This document shows positions 6,381 through 31,867 of a DNA stretch of 33,126 nucleotides, piece by piece. The notes beneath the pieces were generated by a model. It did no database searches, was not told the DNA's origin, and saw only the letters and a program-made list of their open reading frames with translations. Every line of letters begins with the position of its first letter. Position 1 is the first letter of the stretch. Origin of the DNA: Chromera velia (taxonomy: Eukaryota; Sar; Chromeraceae); the NCBI GenBank assembly GCA_018398765.1, contig JAHBMJ010005818.1:31698-64823 (forward strand), written 5' to 3'. A program made the position numbers and the translations under genes.

Positions 6381-7195
6381 TAGCTTTAGCTGAAGATGCT
6401 TCTAGAGACGCATTCAAAATATAGATCGAGCTATATAAAATGTATAACTGCTGCTATTAAATTTGAGCTGCCAACTTTCTGTAAATTGTAAGAAATAAGC
6501 TTCCTAAGTTTTTAGAATTTTGTGGAATCTAGTCGAATCTAGACGAGTAGATTCCACGGTAAATTCCACTAAAATCCATCAACTTCCACTAATTATATAA
6601 ATTCCAGGGGTAAATTCTATTAAATTCCACTAAATTCCCGGAGAATTTAACTCGTAGGCAAAGCCAGAGTTTAACTTATAACTTTTTGAATAGCTAGCTC
6701 AGAAATCTCTATAGTACGTCACAAAGCCTTACAGTGGGTTTTGAAAAGCGCACAGGCAGCGCATACTAGCCGCATAGAAGTGGATTTGTGAGCAATTCTT
6801 TCGAGTCTCTTCATGAAGGAGTAGTGACGCAGTGTCGTTGGAGGTTGAGACAGTCTGAGACCCGACGAGCGACTCGGTTCTAGGATCCGGTTGACGGCTG
6901 GTAATGCGTCAAGGTGGTGTTAAACCTTCAAATTGATCATTCAAGTTGAATGACATCACATTTCGGCGCTTTCAGGCTTTGGCTCTCTTATGATGTAAAC
7001 CGAGGCTGATCCCATCGCAACTGAGTCCTGCTGGCCACCTGCATGCCGAAAGTGAAAAGACTCATTGTTGAAAACAAAATCAAAACAGCGGAACGACACA
7101 GGGAGGGCAGACACTTTGATTCTCTCTTTGAATACCATCAAGGCCCGGTTTAGCGGGTGAATATTAGGCGAACGTACCGGGGAAGGTCCCGCCGC
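6381..7195. other. Intergenic spacer between the duplicated blocks
   Basis: AT-rich, with repeated short words near 6520-6650 (AAATTCCACTAAATT-like variants). No coding signal is supported. Confidence 0.45.
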
Positions 7196-7358
7196 CAGGA
7201 ACCTTGATTCTAAGTTCGGACAAAAGACCCCCTGATGACGGGCTTTCCTTTGCCAACTGAGACTTCAGCTGCAACCAACTTTATGCAGGTGATTCATGGG
7301 ATGGCATGGCCGCAGCTACCAGAATACTTTCGCCTAGCAGAATTCCGCCTTCAACTGA
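7196..7358 (+). repeat. Diverged duplicated block, copy 2
   Basis: This is the partner of 6211-6380, about 985 bases downstream and in the same orientation. A 69-codon frame (7235-7444) runs through it, but the corresponding frame is not kept in copy 1, so coding is unproven. Confidence 0.75.
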
Positions 7359-7608
7359 CAGAAGCAATCTCATCTTTCAGTCCCGCAATCTCATCCGCGA
7401 CAGATTCTTCAATGCAGGAAAGCGGGAAATGGACAGCAAAATGAGATCGAAGTCGTCGGTGGTCTCTTGTTGATCAACAGTGGCTTGACCGAGCTGTGGA
7501 GTTTGACCGAGTTGCCACTGGTCAGGAGGGTTCGAGGTGCCGACCTGTAGACATCCTGTCTGCAGTCATTCTCAGTCAATGAGTGCTTTGTCTTAATTTG
7601 ACAAAAAG

Positions 7609-15499: not shown

Positions 15500-16990
15500 C
15501 TACTGGCTAGAACACCCGCCTTTACACGTACCAGACGCATTTCCAAACAAACCAAAAGGCTCGTCTGCCACCAAAACCACACGTCGCCCTCGGATGAATT
15601 CTTGTACAACCTCGGTGTACGTGACTCCCTCTCCCCCCTCCCCCTCCACCGTCGTCCCGTTGTTCCCCACACAAATCGTGCCTGTGTGAGACCTGCAGGG
15701 CGGTATAAAGAACGAGACTGGTGCCCCCGAATCAACCAGACTTCGTGCCGTCTCTACGGTTGCCTTTTTATATTCTAACCAATCCCCCCCCGGTCCCATG
15801 GCTGCAACTGTCGCCTCTGTGTCTTGGATATTCACGGCAACCAGAGTCGACACACTCGTTTTTCTGAGTGCCCCAACCACATCCCAATCCACCGTACCTT
15901 CGGACCAAGCACCAGAGTATGCCCAGCTCATCACGCTATGACCAAATGATCGTGGTGAGAGAAACTTCGGCCCCCCCTTCAACCAACCAAAATGGGCTCC
16001 TTCCGGGAAAAAAAGACCGGACTGGGAAATCGCAAGCATTTCTGACGACTGCAGTTGACCAAAAAACTGTTGCCGGAGCACACTCTCCTCTCTTAAAGGG
16101 CCCCCGGATGGCATAAGAAACCTTCCCGAACTCGGACGAAACACCGAGTCTCTAATTTCGTCGGAAATCAACGCCACCCCAATGCCACCCGCCGACCCCC
16201 CAGCCAAAACAATGCGTCTGGGGCCTGCCCCTATTCCTTCAAGCGTAGTGCCTGATTCCCCATCTCCCCCGCCCCCAAGTCCTAAACTTTCTGCTCTTTT
16301 AGAGGAGTCTGTAGGATAGAACATCACTGTGTCACGCAAATGCAGCATGATGCTCTGCACATTTACAAACCCGGCAAAATGCAATCCCCAAGGCCCTGCC
16401 TTCCCCCCATTTCCCTTCCCAGCATGGGTGTCACCCGAACAATACGGGATCTCCACATGATTGCAGTTCATGAAAGGATTTTTCTCGTCTGTTGACAGAA
16501 GCCCGTCCTTGTCTCTAAATTCCGGAAGGAAGTGACACGAAGACCCGAGATCGCTGTCCTTCCTTCTCCAACAATCCATTGGGGTAATGCAGAGGCCTCC
16601 TCCCTGAAGGAAGAAGACCCAGTCATCAGCACAAGAGGACCCTGGAGGAGCCAACCGGATAAAAAATCCGGCATCACTTCCATCTAGACATCGGGCTCCT
16701 GGGTAGACGTCACGAGGCACGTAGCGAAGTACTAGGGAGTCGGTTTGCAAGTCAACCGTTGCTTCTGTTTTCTTGCACGTCGCCTTTTGATTTAGAAACG
16801 GAGAAAGGCCAAACCAAAACAATGCAACCGCCACGATCAATGCACATGTGTAGGGAACACACGGTCCTGGCATTCTATTTGGGGGCTTGGGAAGCAGAGT
16901 GCTGCGTCCTGCCGTGACGTTGTTGAGTTCCCTCCCGGCTGTGTTGCCAGCTGCTTCACGCGCACTGTTGTCTGGCAGCTGCAAGTACAT
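15500..16990 (-). CDS. Notum/pectinacetylesterase-family serine hydrolase (496 aa, single exon)
   Basis: Members of this alpha/beta-hydrolase family remove acyl or acetyl groups: plant enzymes act on pectin and animal Notum on Wnt lipid. The frame is one exon. Residues 44-66 (PYTCALIVAVALFWFGLSPF) are a single membrane segment after a short N-terminal tail, so it is probably a type II secretory-pathway protein with a lumenal or extracellular catalytic domain. The oxyanion-hole motif LQGGGLC is at 128-134. The nucleophile elbow GGSAGG puts the catalytic Ser at 266. The likely Asp is D390 (NIQDTEA) and the His is H435 (CRSHT). Paired cysteines fit the family. The start at 16990 is the first Met; Met40 (MPGPCVPY), just before the membrane segment, is an alternative. 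Natural substrate is unknown; a cell-wall polysaccharide ester is a reasonable inference. Confidence 0.88.
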   Translation of the reverse strand: MYLQLPDNSAREAAGNTAGRELNNVTAGRSTLLPKPPNRMPGPCVPYTCALIVAVALFWFGLSPFLNQKATCKKTEATVDLQTDSLVLRYVPRDVYPGARCLDGSDAGFFIRLAPPGSSCADDWVFFLQGGGLCITPMDCWRRKDSDLGSSCHFLPEFRDKDGLLSTDEKNPFMNCNHVEIPYCSGDTHAGKGNGGKAGPWGLHFAGFVNVQSIMLHLRDTVMFYPTDSSKRAESLGLGGGGDGESGTTLEGIGAGPRRIVLAGGSAGGIGVALISDEIRDSVFRPSSGRFLMPSGGPLREESVLRQQFFGQLQSSEMLAISQSGLFFPEGAHFGWLKGGPKFLSPRSFGHSVMSWAYSGAWSEGTVDWDVVGALRKTSVSTLVAVNIQDTEATVAAMGPGGDWLEYKKATVETARSLVDSGAPVSFFIPPCRSHTGTICVGNNGTTVEGEGGEGVTYTEVVQEFIRGRRVVLVADEPFGLFGNASGTCKGGCSSQ

Positions 16991-17830
16991 GGCCAGCCTG
17001 GTTTTGCTTACATGAGGTCACGACCGAGAAAGGAATGGACTGACATATGCAGCGCATTGCACTTGCTGGTGTGTTGTTGCAGTTCCGAAAGCGTTAGTCA
17101 CTCCTTTCATGCATGCGTGCTGTGAAACACAATTAACGCTGCCAGGCGCAGACATATACAACCACTTCCGAAGGTGAATAGCTGAATTGGCAATGTGCCC
17201 ATGGTGCAGATAGTCTGTCAGGACACTCGAGTCGCGCATATATATACCTTTACGTCGTAGTACTCAGTAGTAACGCACCATTCAATGCGCATCCAACAGT
17301 GTCGTTGGCTGACAATGTGTTGCATCATTGCAACGATCACCATGCACTGCAACAGACTTATATAGTAGCTGCATGCATGCATGCATGTGTCGATCGATCA
17401 GCTAATCGGGATCTTTACCCCAAAAGGGTCCGCGGGGGATCGGGCTCCCCCCCCCCTCCCCCCCCGCCCCCCATGCACCCACCCACAATATATCACGGGA
17501 TACACCCAACCAGTTGGGTAAGTGCCTCGGGAGGCCATTTAAGGGGTCGGCCATAATTTGATTGATGCAAAGTCAGGGATCGACTTGGGCATGTCTTGTC
17601 TGCAATGGGTAGGCAAGTGGTGGAGGCTACGGAAATGCACGCAAAATATGCTTTTCGGGACCACACCATACTATCTAAAGTAGTTGGGGACCAAGGGGCA
17701 CCCCTAGGTCAACCTGGCTGCCCGTTAGCATAGTTGCTGAAAGGATAGTACATTGTACTATCAGATAGTACAATAGGATAGTACCTGATGTACCTTAAGA
17801 AGAGGGGAGGGGGAAGGCTTAAGGTTACTT
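16991..17830. other. Upstream region of the esterase gene and spacer
   Basis: The esterase promoter should lie here on the minus strand. A TATATATA run at about 17239-17246 lies roughly 250 bases upstream of its ATG and could be a TATA element, though it could equally be a microsatellite. A TGCATGCA run (about 17372-17388) and long C runs (17448-17471) follow. No gene is seen. Confidence 0.4.
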
Positions 17831-19566: not shown

Positions 19567-19807
19567 AATCAACAAAATCGATCGAATTAAAAAATGAATC
19601 AGAGGAAAATTTGTGTGTCGGAGTCGACCAGGAGGCCGGGAAGGAGAAACACTGCTGCAGCGACTCAATTTCATTCGATTATATACAGACAGGTCAAACG
19701 TGTACTTTGTCAGTCTTTTGTTTGATTTTGTGCTTTTCTGTTCCGACATTGGAAGAGAGAAAAAGACAGGGGAGACGGGCCGTTTATTTTGTTGTCGGTC
19801 CGAAGCA

Positions 19808-22268
19808 ATGGACAAGAATGCACAACTTGCTCAGCGATTGCAGGCGGCCGTAAAGGGCGAACCTTCTCCAGAACATGCCTCCGCCGCAGCCTCCAATGGA
19901 TTTTCCCACAACCGCATTCGCATTGCCTTATGGGATGCAGAGGCACCTTACTCCTTCACGGAAGAGGACCTTGCCCAGGTGTTCTCCTGCTTTGGCGCCG
20001 TCGAGAGAGTCGAAGTGGACTTCAATGGAGAGGGAATTGTCACACTCCCTTCTCTGGCAGCTCTCGAGGATGCCATCAAAGAGTTGAATGGTCTTGTCGT
20101 TCCAGCACTAGGTCATATTGTAGTGGAAGTTGACAACGGGAACCCCATCGGAAAAGTGAAGGAACCCGCCAGACTGTCTGATGAGGTGCAAAATCTGGTC
20201 GCTGCCTTGAGAGAAGTTCCGGCCGCCTCACCAGCATTTGATCCAGTCAGTAGTGTGTGTCGTAAGGTGCTTCCGATTCCTTTGCATCGGGTCTCCAAAA
20301 TACACCGTCTTTGACTCTTGTCTCCTTCGTGCAGATAAGGGGACCGCCTCCAGGTCCTCTGCAGGCACCAGCACCCATCGCGCCACCTCCCAGACCAGGG
20401 GCGGACCTTTCAAAGAGCAAACTTCTTGCGAAGATGGAACTGATCGACTGTTTCGGGCTTGAACCTGCCTTCGGCATTGCAGGCGTCAGTCCTACCTTCC
20501 CCTTTTGAGTCTCACAGACCTCTGCACTGTCTTCTCCGTTTGGATAGCAAGGGTCCACTTCCCCTTTTTATTCGCTTCCCTGTCATCTCCTGGATTCTTG
20601 TAGGATCCAGTCGTATGGTTCTTCATTCACCTCCGTTTCTTTCACCCTCGATGTCCTACGGCACAAGAGTTCTCTCCTGCTCGTGGATCTACATTTAGAT
20701 TTGCATTTGTGTGCGCTTCTATGTCTGGTGCAACTCTCTGTTGCACGGGGAATGCCTCTTGGCTCCCTGTCTGTCAGTCACTGACCTCGATTCCCTTCTG
20801 GTCGCATCGCGAATTTTCCCCCTTTTTAAGTCCTTGCTTTGCCGCTCTCCCCCTTCTCGACTGTTCCTACCTTTCTTATCGACGTGGCAAACTTCCGCAA
20901 GCTTCTCGTGTCAGCAAGCCTCTGTAAGGGAGCAAGCCTCCCACCTGTACGGTCCCTTCCATGCGTTAACTGCACACGCCCCTCCCACCATTCCGTTCCG
21001 ATCCATGCATCAACCAACTCTTCCGTTCCCTCCCGTGAATGCACGCATGCGGGAGTACGTGCAGCGCCTGCTGGGAGAGAAGAACACGAACATGCTCCAC
21101 ATCTTGAAGGAGTGCAACCACCAAATAGACATCGGGATCAAGGGTCAGCCATCCAAGGGGGGGCTAGGGGAAAAATTATTTGAGAACTTCAGATGAATGC
21201 GTCAAACCTGGAGCAGCTTGTCGTCATGACCGTTTTGTTGGAGAGACGTGGTTCCGCTTCTACAACGGTCCGTGTTTCTCTCCACGTGAACCTGTGCGAC
21301 TCTTGGCTGACCTTGTCGGGTTAGCTTTCTGGACTGTGAAGGAAAGGGGCTGACACTTTTTGTTCATTCATTCAGCCTTTGATGAGTATTTTTTCGTGCA
21401 GACTTTTCTGCACAAAACATGGATAAGCATGTTGTGATCTTGAAATCCGTTTGCTTTTCTGTCGTGTCCACGGAGGCTAAATGCGTCGAGGCAAACACAC
21501 TTGAACTGACTGCTTTATCGATCCTCTGTGGCTTTATGTTCTCTGCGCATGCATGCAGGGAAAGCTTCGAACACCGCAGAAAGGAGAGAACGCCTTCATT
21601 TGACTGTTTCTTCTACCTCTCCGCAAGCCTATGAGTCAGTCAGTTCGTCAGATAGTCAGCCAGCGAGCCTTCCTCGCCTGTGCTTTTCCCCTTCTTCCCT
21701 CTGCTCTGTCTTCACCTTTACACTGTTTCGGTTTGAGTTCCTTATTTTTGCCGTCCTCTCGATCCCTTCAGTCAACGGCGGCTTTGTTTCTTCCCCCCCC
21801 GGAGGTCTGCGTGGCAGAATCTAGTGCCTTTTTGAAAGTCTGCTTCGCTTTGGGGGACGTGATACAAAACTGTTGTTTCGTATTGATCATGCTCGGGGGA
21901 TTGTGAGGAGAAGGAACAGATCACCATCTCGCTCACTTTTCATTTGATTTTGACTGATGCGGTGCAGCAAGGCTGTGGGCTTAGTGGAGGACCTGACTGT
22001 GTCCGTGTTCAGAGACTTCATCGAGTTTGCAGCGTAAGTCAGTGAGTCAGACACTGTATGCAGATGCAATCGGTCGTGTTTTCATTTTGTCTTATCACTT
22101 CCCACCTTTCCCTGTCGTCCTCTGATACACTCTCGGGTTGTTTCTCTCTTTCTTGCTTCCTTCCTTCTCGTTTTTGGTTTTTATCTCTTGATTCCTTACT
22201 GCGCCCCTTGATTCCTTCCTTCTGTTCGTTTTTTCGTTCTTTTCTCATTCTTTTGTTTTCTTTCTTTC

Positions 22269-24112: not shown

Positions 24113-24278
24113 GCGTCAAATTCACAGACGGACAAGAAAACGGACGTCAGTTTCCTTGCTTAGATGTACTCTCTGCCGGCTCATTGGAAGTCCAAGTTCA
24201 ACACGTGGGTCGTGTGCCTTGTTGCTCGTGAAGTGAATTTTGTCTAAAACGTGCTTGGCTGTTGCCTCTTCCACGCAA

Positions 24279-25246
24279 ATGAGCGATTTTGGAGACTGGG
24301 GGGACTTTCTCTTTGAGGAGAAAGAGGAATACCCTCCCCCGTCTCCTCCTTCAGAGCGGGATCCCGAGCAGCTGCTTTTGCAATTCTTGTCTTCGTCTCC
24401 CAGCCCCACCGCCTCCGCTCTCAATGCTTTCGCGGCGGAGAACGGTATCGACACCTCGCCCCACGAAGAATCGATCTTCTTCGTTGCTGCGTCTCTAGGA
24501 AACGTCTCCGTGGTCGATTCGCTCCTTAACCTCTTCCCCGTCACGCTGAGGGACGAGCAGGGCCGCACGGTGCTGCACCGGGCCATCAAGAGCAGACGGG
24601 ATAGTCTGGTGCGTTTCCTGTGCTACTGTAAGAAGATCGGCTGGGATCGCAAGAGGGCCCTGTTCGAAGTGAGGGATGAAAGGGGTTTGACTCCCCTAGC
24701 CCAGGCCGTGGTGCTCAATTTTGTTCCTGCCATCATCGCCCTGTGCGGCGAGCAGTACTGCGGCGGGAGGAACCCTGATGAGTTTATTGGCCAGGATGTG
24801 GAAGTCGTTAGAGAGGCCGCACAGCGCGCGCTGTCGGAAACGACGAAGGAGCGTCTGATCGACTGGCTCCACTTCCACTTCCTCCAGCAACTCTCCTACG
24901 CCATCTTCACAAGAGACATGACGCCAGAGAAGGCACAGGAGAGACTAAGGTACCTTGGTGTCGACCCGGAGATGTTTGGGTTGTTTGACAGTGGTGTGGA
25001 CCAGGTGTTGGGTTGTGTCCGGGTTGCTTGTCTGTGCTCAGATGCCAGGATGCTCCGGTGGCTTCTGGACACCTACGGTGAAATGACCAACCTGAGGGAG
25101 TTGGCCGAAAGGGAGGCTTATATCCCTATAGGGGGGCGTGCGCTGATGGGGAGGGATGGGAGGGAGTTGTCAGAAGGCGGATACGGAGAAGATCAGAAGA
25201 TGAACAGAGTGAAAATGATTTCTATGTTTTGGGATGGACAGGTGGG

Positions 25247-25636: not shown

Positions 25637-27509
25637 CTGCAGGGGTCCTTCGCCGACTTTCTGGAAAGGCGGATGAAGGACAGGTATGGTGGGGAGGATC
25701 CCCGCGAGCGCGACATTCAGCGGTCGGTTGACAAAGAGATCAAACGGCAGAGGGGGACTGGCTGGGGTCTGAGGGAAAAGGAAAGGAACAAAAGCGAACA
25801 AGAGCAAGAGCAGGAGGGGCAACAGGAGGAGGAAGTCGGGGAGGGGGATATGGGTACGCTCTTCCCATCTCGTGTTTCCACGTTCGAGATGTTGGTTGAC
25901 CACATTGGCCTCTCCGTCGTTCCCCCTCTAGACCCCCTGGTTGACCTAGGCCGAGTCGATATCCTAGAGTATCTCATCAAAAAGTACGAGATCGACTTGC
26001 TCATTCCTCTGCCCGACAACCTGGAGGAGGTGTTGGAGGCAGAGAGGGAAGAAGAGCTACAGGCTACGGAGAATGGAGGGGAGGAGGGAGACACGTGCGG
26101 CATTTGCTGTGACAAGATGGTCAACCCCATCACTCTGGACTGTCCCGGAAAGCACACCTTCTGCAGGGTGTGTCTCCGCAGGGTGCGGTACCCAAACGCT
26201 GAGAGGCCCAATATCCCCTGTCCCCTCTGCCGCCACGAGGTCTACTTCCCCCACGCCCACGACTCTGTCTCTGATCGACAAGCGCGCGCATTGCGCGAAT
26301 GGATTACCCGAGATAAGAATTCCCCCCGGCACTCCTCTGAAGACGAGTCGGACAGAGACTCCAACGATCGAGAAATCGAAGATCGGTCCCGCTCCCATCA
26401 ATGGAATAAGAAGCGTCCCCCGCTCTGGTGGGCCAGGAGGTGGTGGGAGGGGCGGGGGAGGCTCTGGGACAAGGCAGACACCTTGGGCTCCTCTCTTCTG
26501 GCTGTCGCCTTCGCCTCCAGTGCGATGGGGGTCGTGGAGAAACTCCGCAAGGACTTCGGGATGGATCCCGGAAAGGTCAGTTGACGGACTGTGACCCACT
26601 TGCGTTGGAAAGTGTTTGGTCCTCTCTGGATTGTGGCTGTCCGGAAAAGTGCGCTTGTTTGTGTTCATCACTGGCAGCCCACATGTCCAGTACTGTCTGA
26701 AATCGTGTGTATCTGTCAGTCCGCTTTGGACCCTGGGTGTTTTTTCTACAGGCAGTGAAGCTTAAGGTCCTGCAGTGCCCTTCGAAGTTTTTTGTTTCGT
26801 GAATGAGTCTGGGTGTGGAGGATCTGGTGCAGGCTACGTTCCTTGAGCGTTCCATGCTTTTTTTTTTTCATGAAATAAACGTCTGCTGTGAAGACACACA
26901 TGCAGGCAACGTTCCTTGGGCGTTCCATGCTCCTTTTTGTTTTTTCTTCATGAAATGAACCTCTGCTGTAAACACACACATGCAGACCACGTTTCTTGGG
27001 CGTTCCATGCTCCTTTTTGTTTTTTCTTCATGAAATGAACCTCTGCTGTAAACACACACATGCAGGCCACGTTTCTTGGGCGTTCCATGCTCCACGTCGC
27101 TGTGACTTGCGGGCAGCGTGTAAGCGTGAAGTGGCTTCTTTCGAGGTACGGAGCTGAGTTGGCGTCCCTGGTGTGCAGGGAGGACGGGAGGGCCCCTGTG
27201 CATGTGGCCGCGCTGCAGGGGGACGATCACTTGATCGGCGTTTTGGAGGATTTTGTCGGGGGTGAGGGGGTGAAGGACTCTGAGGGGCGGGTGTGGGAGG
27301 ATATGATACTGGAGATGGTTGGCGAGGAAGATGAACAAACGGATGGTGAAGACGGCAAAGGGCGGAAGGAAAAGAAAAAGAAGAAGAAGAAAAAGGGGAA
27401 GAAGAAAGAGTCTTCTGCTGCTGAGCGGCTGCGGGAGATGAAGGTCCTGGCGATGAAGAGACGCGCGCCGGACACGGTCAACCGAAGGTCACTCACACCG
27501 GTCAATTAG
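24279..27509 (+). CDS. Ankyrin-repeat protein with a RING finger (three exons, 779 aa as modelled)
   Basis: Exons 24279-25241, 25643-26575 and 27066-27509 are all phase 0; donors are GTGGGT and GTCAGT, acceptors TGCAG. The start is the only Met in its upstream-open frame. Ankyrin-like repeats occupy about residues 64-158 (GRTVLHRAIKSRRDSLVRFL, GLTPLAQAV) and about 637-690 (GRSMLHVAVTCGQ, GRAPVHVAALQGDD). A complete C3HC4 RING lies at 473-517: CGIC, then C-x3-H-x2-C-x2-C, then CPLC. This architecture suggests an E3 ubiquitin ligase that recognises partners through ankyrin repeats. Around the RING the sequence is acidic, with an Arg/Ser/Asp-rich tail after it. The third exon ends in a Lys-rich run (KKKKKKKKGKKKE) and an AERLREMKVLAMKRR helix. 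The true 3' end is uncertain: the next exons (from 27687) may belong to this gene through a donor upstream of the TAG. Confidence 0.75.
25244..25635 (+). repeat. Composite microsatellite filling an intron, with an unresolved base
   Basis: In order: CT repeats (about 25247-25273), CTTT/CCTT repeats to 25454, an n at 25455, CT repeats again, a second CT run (25522-25544), a TATG/TA segment, then ACAC and a GT run of about 15 units ending near 25634. Together they occupy nearly the whole 401-base intron 25242-25642. The GT run stops within eight bases of the acceptor GCCTGCAG. The array length may be misassembled around the n. Confidence 0.9.
26828..27090 (+). repeat. Tandem ~80-bp repeat carrying a 3' splice site and exon start
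   Basis: TGCAG followed by a near-identical 25-base exon start (ACGTTTCTTGGGCGTTCCAT in the last two copies) occurs at 26828, 26901, 26981 and 27061. Spacings are 73, 80 and 80 bases. The last copy is the acceptor of the real ankyrin exon; the earlier ones continue into T-rich sequence and a TGA. A fainter fifth copy may begin at about 26773. The repeat spans intron end and coding start, so it copied a functional splice junction. Confidence 0.9.
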
Positions 27510-27686: not shown

Positions 27687-30600
27687 AATGGCTTCGTCGC
27701 TTCATGAATGCGGAATGCTACTCCTTCATGATGATCGTCTCTACGTGCATAGTTTCCATTGAAGATGATTTCCATGCAACGAATGCAGACTGGTTGCACT
27801 CCTCGAGGCAGAGGCTCCCCTCGAGACCCTGGTAGCCCTCTGTAAATCCACAAATGCGCTGTACACGCTCCTGAACAATTTTATACACGACCGGTCCATG
27901 TACTGGATTTTCGCGGGCGCTGACGCCCGGAAGCGCAGGGAGGAGAAGAGCAGCGAGGGGAATCAGGAGGACGGGGGGGAACGGGAGAATGAGGAGGGGA
28001 AGGAGAATTGCCCGGAGGGGGGGAAGGAGAAGGAAGACGAAAAAGGTGAGGGTGAGGGAGAGCCAAGTTGCACTGCTGTAGACAACACGGACCCGGTCAT
28101 GAGGTTCCTCATGTCTCACGTCCTCCCCAAGTACCAGAGGGTTGACTTCTTCAGATGGGTCATCCTGAACGTCTACGTCAAAGAGTATCGCTTCATGAAG
28201 TACGCGTCAGTTTCTCTCATCCACCTGCTGCATGTTTTCCTCTTGTCGCCTGCCGCTGTTTTGGCTGCTGCTTCAGACAGAAAGACTGCCACCGATAGAT
28301 AGGCAAAAAGATGAGGTGGCAAAGTTATGAAAGTACATTGAAAAGATGGATGGACCGAGAAACAGACGCACAGGTAGATAAGTACGCAAGCAGGCAGGCA
28401 AGAAAAGACTGCACATACATGAAGGTCTATGTGTTGTCGTGACAGTGCAAGCGTTTGTCGGTCCGAAGACTGCGGGTCGACAGCTGGGCTTAAAAGCGGA
28501 GTCCCAGAATACGAATCTCGGATCGATCATATGGAACAACGCACTTCTAAACAGACGCACTGACATTCAAAAAGGTCTTAAAAAATAAAGGAGTTCCATC
28601 ATGAAAGAAATGTTGCTTGATTTATTATGTACAGATGCACACATCATGGATACAGCCTTTTGACGCTCTTCATCCCTTCCCACTGCAGGTGTTGCGATTG
28701 GGGCGGTCCCCCCGGATTCACCCCTGAGTCTTTTCGCGTCCTCGCCCACTTGCCCCCCGACAGTCAGATGAGCCTCCCTCTCCACCCCCTGTCTTTGGAG
28801 GGCCACCGGGAGGTCGGGAGGGTCTGCGAGGACCTGCAGAAAGTGGTGGAAGCCGACAAGGCGCTGTCGAAGATTCGGGAGCCTCTGAAAAACTTGTTGA
28901 GACAGAGCAGGGACGCAGACGGCCGGGAGGGTCTGTTCGGTCCTGAGGTGCTCATTCGCCTTCGAAATGAGGAGGAGCGATTGCTGGCCTCCCTCCCGGG
29001 TGAGTGTCTTGAGCTAGAGGAGATTCAGAACTCGATCTTTTGGACAAAGGAGATCCTCCGAAATCCGGACAATCGAATTTTGGGGTGCGCATATAGCGCA
29101 AGAGGGTCGGGCAGCAAGCCAACCCTGGTGGAGATGGCGGCGCTGTTTGGGACAGTGGAGGCCCTCCAGTGGGTCCTGGACGAGTGGGCAAAGGTCAGGG
29201 AGTGCTTTTTTTCTTTCGGAAACTCAGCATTATTAATTGTTTTTCTGAGTAACACTCTAGTGAGTCCTCGGCGAGAAGCAAACTGTCAGACAAACAGGTT
29301 ATGATTGGCATTGCAGGAATGTTGCGGTACAGTAAAAGGTGCCCCCCCCCCCTCCTTAAATTCAAATAGAATCCTGTTTCCCTCTTTCTTTCTGCCTGTG
29401 TGTCTCTTATGTACCTTGATGTTGTCTGACCTGTCTGAGGATCCTGTGGCATCTTTCTCCGTCTTGGTGAGGACTGTGTGTATGTGATTTGTGTGATGAC
29501 GTCTCTGAACAGATTGCATTTAGATTGTGTCTCTTTTTTGTCTTTCTTCTTCTCTTCCTCCTCCCCCTTCTACTACTACTTGTTCAGATCTTCGGAGAGG
29601 CCTCCCAGGTACGAGAGGCGATCTGGGCCCTCCGTACGGTCTGCTACGGGGCCCGGCTGTCGATTGGACGGCCCGACGCAGCACAGTTCCTCCTCGACTG
29701 GCTCCACTCCAGGGGGGTGGACGTGAACACACTGGAGGTCCCTTCACGCTTCAGGAGGAGGCCGAGAGAGGAAGAAGTGTGTTTGGAGGAGGACGGTGAG
29801 GGAGTAGGGGTGGAGAGCGAGGAGGAGGAGGGAGAGGAGGAGACAGGGTCAGAGGACGAGGAGGGGGTCCAGGGAGGGAAGGGAGCCTCCCCACCGGGCC
29901 CTCAGAGTATAGAGAAGAGGTGGAAGGACGGGCCGTGCCACCATCTTGTTGATCTTGCTGTGGATATTCTGAGCAACCAGCGGAGTGACTGGAAGTTTCG
30001 GTGCAAAATTTCGGAATCTCCAGAGGCCAAATTTAGTGACCTGATGGTCGCTGTGTTTCGGTCTGAGGATGTGGCTTCTGTTCTATTGTCCCACCCTGCA
30101 GTCAAAATCCGTCCTGAAGAATTCCTCTCCCATCAGACATTGGACCGGTCGATGATGCGTTCGTTTTCATCGAATGGTCTTCTGGCGGGGATTGCAGAAA
30201 CCCTGTGGGTCTGCAAAGTGTCGCAGGCGCAGAAGGAGAGAGAGAAGCAGGCGGAGTTGGACAGGGAGAGAAGGGAGGAGGAGGCAAATCGAGAGAATGG
30301 AGAGCTCCCAGAAAATTCTAGCAGCAAAGAAAAAGAAGCCGCCTCCTTAGCCTCAGCCTCAAAACAACCATCAGCCAAAGCCATAGCTGCAGCCGCGAAA
30401 TCTGTTCGCTCCTCGGTTCCCCTTCCTGGTGTGCTTTCTGAGCTTGTCGATGTAGTGCATCAGACGAGCTTCTTCCCCCACCCCGTCTCCCTCGTAGAGT
30501 GGCTCTACGCAGACCGTCTTGCCTTCGTTGCACGAAAGTTCTGTGACAAGATTCAGTGGCGAGACGCAGAGCAGCCCCACCTAGAAGAATCCAGTGCCCC

Positions 30601-31867
30601 CCCCACAGAGGCAACGGCCCCCTCCCCTCTCCCTGCCGTGCCCCCTGCAGCGTCAGCTGCTGCTGCCGCCGCCCCAAGCGATCCTGAAGAGGAAGTCGCA
30701 ACGTCTTGTGCTCCCCAAATCCCCCTTAGCCTCTTGCGGGCTTTAGTGAAATTTAACCTTCCGGGTCCTTTGGAGGTTCTGGTCTCTGCCTTCGAAGTCT
30801 CCGTTCAGAGGGACGTGACAGAGAGAGCCATCCTAGAAGCAGAAGACGACGTTTTCTCTTTCACCAGAGACATCCAGTCTCTCATGAAACCGGTGGTGCG
30901 GGCGATCAGGGAAGCGCAGAGACTGCGGTGGTTGCTTATGGATAGACTGCTGGAGCTCGCTGCAGCTTTTCCATCCGATGCAGATACTTCCCCTCCCCCC
31001 CAATGTAGCCCCAGTGCCCCTTCCCCCCAGTCTAGGTGGGTGGAGGATGCAAAGACCCGAGGCTTGTCTGTCACTGTGCACAGTCTCCTCAACAGCATCT
31101 GCTGCTCCCTCGAGGCAGCGAACTGTCTCTGGGTCTCCGGAGCCATGGAGCGCGCTCAGCTGGAGAGCGATTTCGTGGCACAGTTCCCCGAAGAGTCAAT
31201 GCCGACGGAGCTCGCTGCAGCGCTCAGAGGGGACAGGGAGACCCGGTATAGGACTCTACAGCAGCAACAGCAGCAGGTGACGGGCGGTCTGCCCCACTCC
31301 ACTGAAGAAGCGGTGGACGAGGAGGAGCAGGCCCTGCCGCCCCCCTCACCCTCGCAGCATGCCGGGGAGGCAGAGGCTGAGAAGAAAGAACACCTGCAAG
31401 CCCTTGAGCTGCTGCAAGCTGCTCCGGCTGGTAGCTCGGGGCTTTTGGGTGGAGGGGGGGAAGAGTCAAAAGAGAAAGCAGTGAAGGTAAGGCAGAAGGA
31501 AATTGGGGAGGCGGCAGTGAGAGAGGCAGACTCTGAGGCTATGGTGCCGTCTTCCGTGCCGAGCAGGGGAGATTCTTCCGGAGAGAGTAGACCTCAGCCT
31601 AGCGCAGCTCCTTCCTCCGCCTGTTGTGCGCAGACGTCTGCAGCACCTCCCGCAGCAGTCGCCAAGCCAGCCTCGTCAGTCGGCCCTCCCGTGTTTCCCT
31701 CAAGTGAGAAGAGGGCGTGTCTGATTGGCCGCATGAGGCTCCGCAGTGGCCGTCCCCTCCTTTCGGCTCTCGAGACGGACTTTCCTCATTCACCCGTGAC
31801 TCTTCTTGTCAGAGAAGAAGGCGCAGATCAGAGAGACAGCGAGCTCCGTCGCTGTTCCGATAAGTGA
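27687..31867 (+). CDS. Large acidic, solenoid-like protein (four exons; may continue the ankyrin/RING gene)
   Basis: Exons 27687-27744 (possible ATG at 27704), 27789-28205, 28689-29193 and 29588-31867 join with matching phases; donors are GTGCAT, GTCAGT and GTCAGG. From Met 27704 the product is 1,080 aa. Helical ankyrin-like segments recur (MIVSTLVALLEAEAPLETLV; TLVEMAALFGTVEALQWVLD; REAIWALRT; DAAQFLLDWLHSRGVDVNTL). They are interrupted by Glu/Gly/Lys-rich insertions (about residues 58-105, and a Glu-rich block early in exon 4). Later parts are Ala/Ser/Pro/Gln-rich with a QQQQQQ run, and end in a basic tail. The first exon is open 5' of the ATG with a TGCAG acceptor in front, so the protein may start in the preceding gene. 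I do not recognise a known family; a scaffold role is only a guess. The final stop is TGA at 31865. Confidence 0.68.

Follow-up and report, generated by a model that had tools for sequence, protein, structure and literature searches.

Where a 3' splice site is present in duplicate, classic work found that the choice between the copies is set by both proximity and exon sequence. The closest described arrangement is the 'mirage' of lancelets, a minisatellite-like tandem duplication, the duplicated segment of which, in the globin gene BflGb6, runs from the 3' end of an intron into the 5' part of exon 2 (PMC3087553). According to the same source, BflGb6 has six and three units in two haplotypes, with concerted evolution inside the array and diverged edges, and RT-PCR suggests that lancelet mirages are spliced without interference (PMC3087553). 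The mirage genes given in two sources are Adh3, the globins BflGb6 and BflGb9, troponin C and PGBD5 (PMC3087553, PMC3902484), troponin C and the imperfect case of PGBD5 being the further ones of PMC3902484. The term 'mirage' was found for lancelets only in the literature searched, subscription papers lying largely outside the search. In Drosophila, tandem duplication of proto-splice sites has led to the gain or movement of introns, and a premature stop was noted for introns of this type (PMC2891723).

The array described here lies in a stretch of 33,126 nucleotides of Chromera velia DNA (the window; contig C3890, 31698-64823), in a gene with a RING finger and ankyrin repeats that spans approximately 24-32 kb of the window. 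Protein searches of the organism's own genome (assembly size 177,833,721 bases, 4040 contigs) found four places for each of the RING and ankyrin exons, on contigs C3890, C522, C137 and C70, and the position and phase 0 of the intron between these exons are identical in all four. Within the window gene, a Pfam Ank_2 match (E 7e-15) was obtained within 24237-25175, and zero Pfam families in 28690-29193 or 29510-31864. The parts of the gene that surround the array are:

25643-26575, plus strand: upstream exon, a RING finger with ankyrin-like sequence at its end and the donor AAG|GTCAGT (open frame; Pfam zf-C3HC4, E 1.6e-5, 25646-26575; counterpart exon in C522)
26576-27065, plus strand: predicted phase-0 intron of 490 bp, at a position common to the four paralogues (frame and paralogue comparison)
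27066-27487, plus strand: ankyrin exon, beginning with the 28 bases of the repeated exon head (Pfam Ank_3, E 3.1e-5, 27066-27506; paralogous exons)
27789 and 28689, plus strand: starts of exon 4 and exon 5, respectively (from sequence)

The join 26575|27066 gives GMDPGK|ATFLGRSMLH, with ankyrin spacing as judged by eye, and the donor of the ankyrin exon (CGAAG|GTCACT) was also placed by eye. TGCAG is the usual predicted acceptor of the RING-ankyrin gene, and was present at 7/7 acceptors placed by frame and homology (RING, ankyrin, exon 4 and exon 5 in the window gene; RING, ankyrin and exon 4 in C522). The acceptor of the ankyrin exon is TGCAG in C70 and ATCAG in C137. Elsewhere in the window, a pectinacetylesterase-family protein is encoded on the minus strand at 15503-17017 (Pfam PAE, E 2.1e-28), and an RNA recognition motif on the plus strand at 19598-20311 (Pfam RRM_1, E 6.5e-7).

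At 26828-27093 lies a tandem array with a period of 80, the unit of which joins the final ~50 bases of the intron to the opening 28 bases of the ankyrin exon. The sequence-only reading had described a unit of about 80 bp, holding the acceptor and the exon head, as being repeated upstream with each TGCAG intact, and this description was confirmed. TRF detected the period of 80 at 26828-27090 (3.4 copies, 90% matches) and at 26860-27093 (2.9 copies, 94%), and an ungapped repeat finder gave copy spacings of 73, 80 and 80. Chance similarity as the origin of the array was ruled out by TRF and by shuffles, of which 0/1000 reached the score. The four acceptors, designated w1 to w4, end at 26832, 26905, 26985 and 27065, with TGCAG in 4/4, and the units to which they belong are:

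26763-26832, plus strand: w1 unit, probably the oldest and decayed, ending in TGCAG with decoy acceptor 26832 (alignment to 26833-26900; weaker against later units)
26833-26905, plus strand: w2 unit, copied exon head and intron tail, 73 bp, decoy acceptor 26905 (repeat finders, frames, unit alignment)
26906-26985, plus strand: w3 unit, copied exon head and intron tail, 80 bp, decoy acceptor 26985 (repeat finders, frames, unit alignment)
26986-27065, plus strand: w4 unit, copied exon head and intron tail, 80 bp, acceptor 27065, taken as authentic (repeat finders, frames, unit alignment)

Read in the phase that the donor imposes, w4 is the sole acceptor of the array that opens into the ankyrin exon, as had been expected of the last copy. 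A stop-bearing alternative product is predicted from the sequence, as the frames of 3/3 decoys end in stops. The short peptide followed by a stop that had been predicted for the earlier copies was found for w2 and w3, each with 15 codons (ATFLGRSMLLFVFSS and TTFLGRSMLLFVFSS, respectively, then the stop), but not for w1, the frame of which continues for 41 codons before its stop. Splicing to a decoy would amount to an alternative 3' splice site that brings in a stop, and not to a cassette 'poison exon'. The intron also has a fifth TGCAG, with its last base at 26775, and a pyrimidine-rich TTTTTTCTACAG (CTACAG), with its last base at 26751; both lead to a stop. On the 3' side of the array, the codon score was matched by 0.3% of 1700 random stretches, the ankyrin exon itself being among the eight training exons.

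The units were compared over 42 intron bases and 28 exon bases. The w3 and w4 units differ at 1/70 positions and are identical in the last 42 intron bases, and the differences from w4 amount to 7/70 in w2 and to 18 of 67 aligned positions in w1. Decay increases toward the 5' side and the two exon-proximal units are nearly identical, i.e. homogenised inner units are bordered by a diverged edge unit, as in a mirage. This edge, at approximately 26763-26820, is probably an older decayed unit. Its alignment to 26833-26900 had a score of 36, which was reached by 0/1000 shuffles (best shuffle 34), and its alignment to the intron part of w2 a score of 29, reached by 0/1000 by a narrow margin (best 28). 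Against the intron part of w3, the intron part of w4 and 26986-27060, the score was reached by 20, 22 and 69 of 1000 shuffles, respectively.

The closest paralogue, on C522, has an intron of 276 bp with a two-unit array. Its upstream unit reads GTGCGG at the acceptor site (GCGG for GCAG) and is dead; GTGCAG adjoins the exon. The two C522 units (c1 and c2) differ from each other at 11/66 positions, and w2 differs from c2 at 7/68. For each of the four genes, the 28-base exon head was compared with the gene's own intron, and the 42-base intron tail with the rest of the intron, using 1000 shuffles for each comparison. In the window gene and in C522, the score was reached by 0/1000 shuffles for the head and 0/1000 for the tail. 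In these comparisons the repeat was undetectable in C70, where 942/1000 (head) and 435/1000 (tail) shuffles reached the score, and in C137, with 219/1000 and 200/1000, respectively. The intron is placed identically in all four paralogues although two of these lack the repeat, so that it is older than the repeat and no new intron was created. The break between exon head and intron (ATGCTCC, then T-rich sequence) is alike in the inner window units and in C522, which suggests that the first duplication predates the C3890/C522 split. The c1 exon head has CGGCC in common with c2, and this motif is absent from the window units, so the two genes could also have undergone duplication independently.

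The window/C522 pair is old and, judged from its substitutions, is under purifying selection (dS 0.94, dN 0.13, dN/dS 0.14; 450 codons in two exons), and the upstream acceptor has been lost in one member of the pair, C522. The number of units differs between paralogues, with one haplotype per gene compared. Three extra TGCAGs occur upstream of the acceptor in the C70 intron (contig positions ~38440-38525, L013), without a detectable copy of head or tail, and one extra TGCAG is present upstream in the same intron of C137. One stop each was seen within the ankyrin-exon match of C137 and the RING-exon match of C70.

The array is very probably a boundary-spanning minisatellite, or 'mirage', produced by neutral repeat turnover and carrying tolerated decoys. 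A neutral tandem duplication taking in a junction by chance had been one of two options offered by the sequence-only reading, and it was supported by the differing copy numbers of the paralogues, the dead C522 acceptor, the lack of any trace in C70 and C137 and the decay of the older units. Many units, but not all, keep their splice signals (4/4 TGCAG in the window; GCGG upstream in C522). A first tandem duplication of the intron 3' end and 28 exon bases would have occurred before the C3890/C522 split, and slippage or unequal exchange would later have enlarged the array of the window gene. The spliceosome would mainly use 27065, the sole acceptor joined to the full exon, and use of an upstream acceptor would yield premature-stop transcripts as a tolerated cost and not as a regulated output, if splicing is assumed to be unregulated. 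Counting against this neutral reading are the intact TGCAG at 3/3 decoy acceptors of the window and the conservation of the intron tail beyond silent sites.

Costly splicing noise is a stronger form of the mirage interpretation and compatible with it; the decoys, above all 26985, would be spliced to a considerable extent without regulation, lowering the gene's output without being selected. The w3 and w4 segments are near-identical, both with TGCAG, and w3 comes earlier in the transcript. However, w3 has an A at exon position +1, its exon consists of the 28 copied bases only, and splicing appears normal in lancelet mirages (PMC3087553). Noise on this scale is conceivable, and is suggested here tentatively.

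The other option of the sequence-only reading was a poison-exon switch tuned by repeat number. In such a regulated switch, the upstream acceptors would compete with 27065, the stop would lead to RNA decay and the repeat number would set the productive share. The three intact TGCAG decoys with in-phase stops are in keeping with this proposal, as is the unusual conservation of the intron tail; w3 and w4 are preceded by the same 42 intron bases, and some competition is therefore likely. TGCAG retention was measured against how far each unit has diverged from w4. The chance of an intact TGCAG under neutrality was 0.93 for w3, 0.59 for w2 and 0.21 for w1 (~0.12 jointly), so that retention in the window decoys is about what neutral decay permits. 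Because of this joint chance and the dead C522 acceptor, there is no sign of decoy maintenance. Among the paralogues compared, the stop-bearing option is not conserved, the upstream acceptor being dead in C522 and the repeat undetectable in C70 and C137. RNA structure hiding the decoys was also considered and rejected, as a fold of 535 bases had an ordinary z of -1.06, with 16/100 shuffles as good. A switch of this kind is thus improbable, and this part of the earlier reading gained no positive support, although some room for function remains because the intron tail is conserved beyond silent sites.

This tail comprises the last ~40 intron bases (window 27024-27065; C522:1688-1729, L012), which are conserved between the two old paralogues. 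Between w2 and c2, 36/40 aligned bases match, and between w4 and c2 34/40 (34/43 with other gap costs). At fourfold-degenerate sites of the window gene and C522, 78/148 are unchanged and 70/148 changed. The difference between tail and fourfold sites had a Fisher p of 8e-6 (w2-c2) and 2e-4 (w4-c2), or 8e-5 and 1e-3 when TGCAG was left out. The tail alignment scored 31 against a shuffle maximum of 6, with 0/500 single-base shuffles reaching the score, and the identities are flattered to some extent by the gapped alignment. Two other intron tails (-8 vs 7 and -2 vs 4) and two donor ends (-13 vs 2 and 1 vs 2) were below their shuffle maxima. Interlocus gene conversion was rejected as the cause of tail conservation, as 7/15 fourfold sites differ within exon codons 1-24, a level like that of the RING exon (50/103), and there is no sign of conversion there. 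The tail may contain a branch point or a regulatory signal. That it is a conserved splicing regulatory element, multiplied in the window gene so that unit number, changing by slippage, sets the share of productive RING-ankyrin splicing, is decidedly unlikely.

The w3 and w4 units differ at so few positions that one of them could be spurious, and the exact copy number is therefore uncertain. In contrast, w1 and w2 are clearly diverged, and a diverged two-unit form is found in C522 on another contig. As the units differ and a related array lies on a separate contig, an assembly artefact does not account for the array itself, and it is very unlikely that the extra units were made by short-read misassembly. 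An introner or other mobile element inserted at the junction could have supplied the intron part of the unit, but this is hardly credible, as genome searches, run with the array as well as the intron, led to one further place, C522, making two places, the window and its paralogue (repeat counts being lower bounds), instead of many near-identical copies in introns genome-wide, and the 21-base tail motif with <=3 mismatches occurred in 8 places, four of them in these two genes, against 9 for a reversed control.

A sample of 174,942 non-N bases, consisting of the first 10 kb of 20 contigs taken at even steps of contig number, was screened for further arrays with a filter of period >=30, score >=90 and unit entropy >4. 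Thirteen rows were kept, eight from the sample (7 arrays, as two L017 rows are one), four from the window and one from L013. Noncoding repeats run into a coding flank in 0/7 sample arrays, under a filter that also missed the C522 array (L012). The two arrays of L026 and that of L017 were coding-looking inside. A genome-wide rate is not derivable from this sample, because the C522 array escaped the filter and the studied exon was itself among the eight by-eye exons used to train the codon score. L026 contains 114-bp coding-like tandem repeats in two blocks at 6699-7577. Two other minisatellites of the window, at 1374-1503 (32 bp x 4.1) and 2533-2684 (50 bp x 3.0), lack a strong coding flank.

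The four paralogues, with no trace, two units, or three or more, form a natural series for the choice of the spliceosome among near-identical acceptors. Like poison exons and those alternative 3' splice sites that carry a stop, the window array would bring a stop into the transcript if a decoy were used, and it differs from them in that there is no cassette exon and the decoys are not conserved. With the Drosophila introns it shares tandem duplication around splice sites (PMC2891723), whereas the window intron predates the duplication and no new intron has arisen. With the lancelet mirages, the likeness extends to an intron-exon boundary in tandem, splice signals in many units, homogenised inner units with a diverged edge, and perhaps length differences, seen here between paralogues. 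The window array has this already described architecture. Unlike the lancelet mirages, it has an 80-bp unit, lies in a RING-ankyrin gene, is present in an old paralogue too and belongs to a distant lineage, the Chromera velia genome having light-harvesting genes (58 family matches). A mirage in so distant a genome would point to boundary-spanning minisatellites as something that tandem repeat turnover generally leaves behind.
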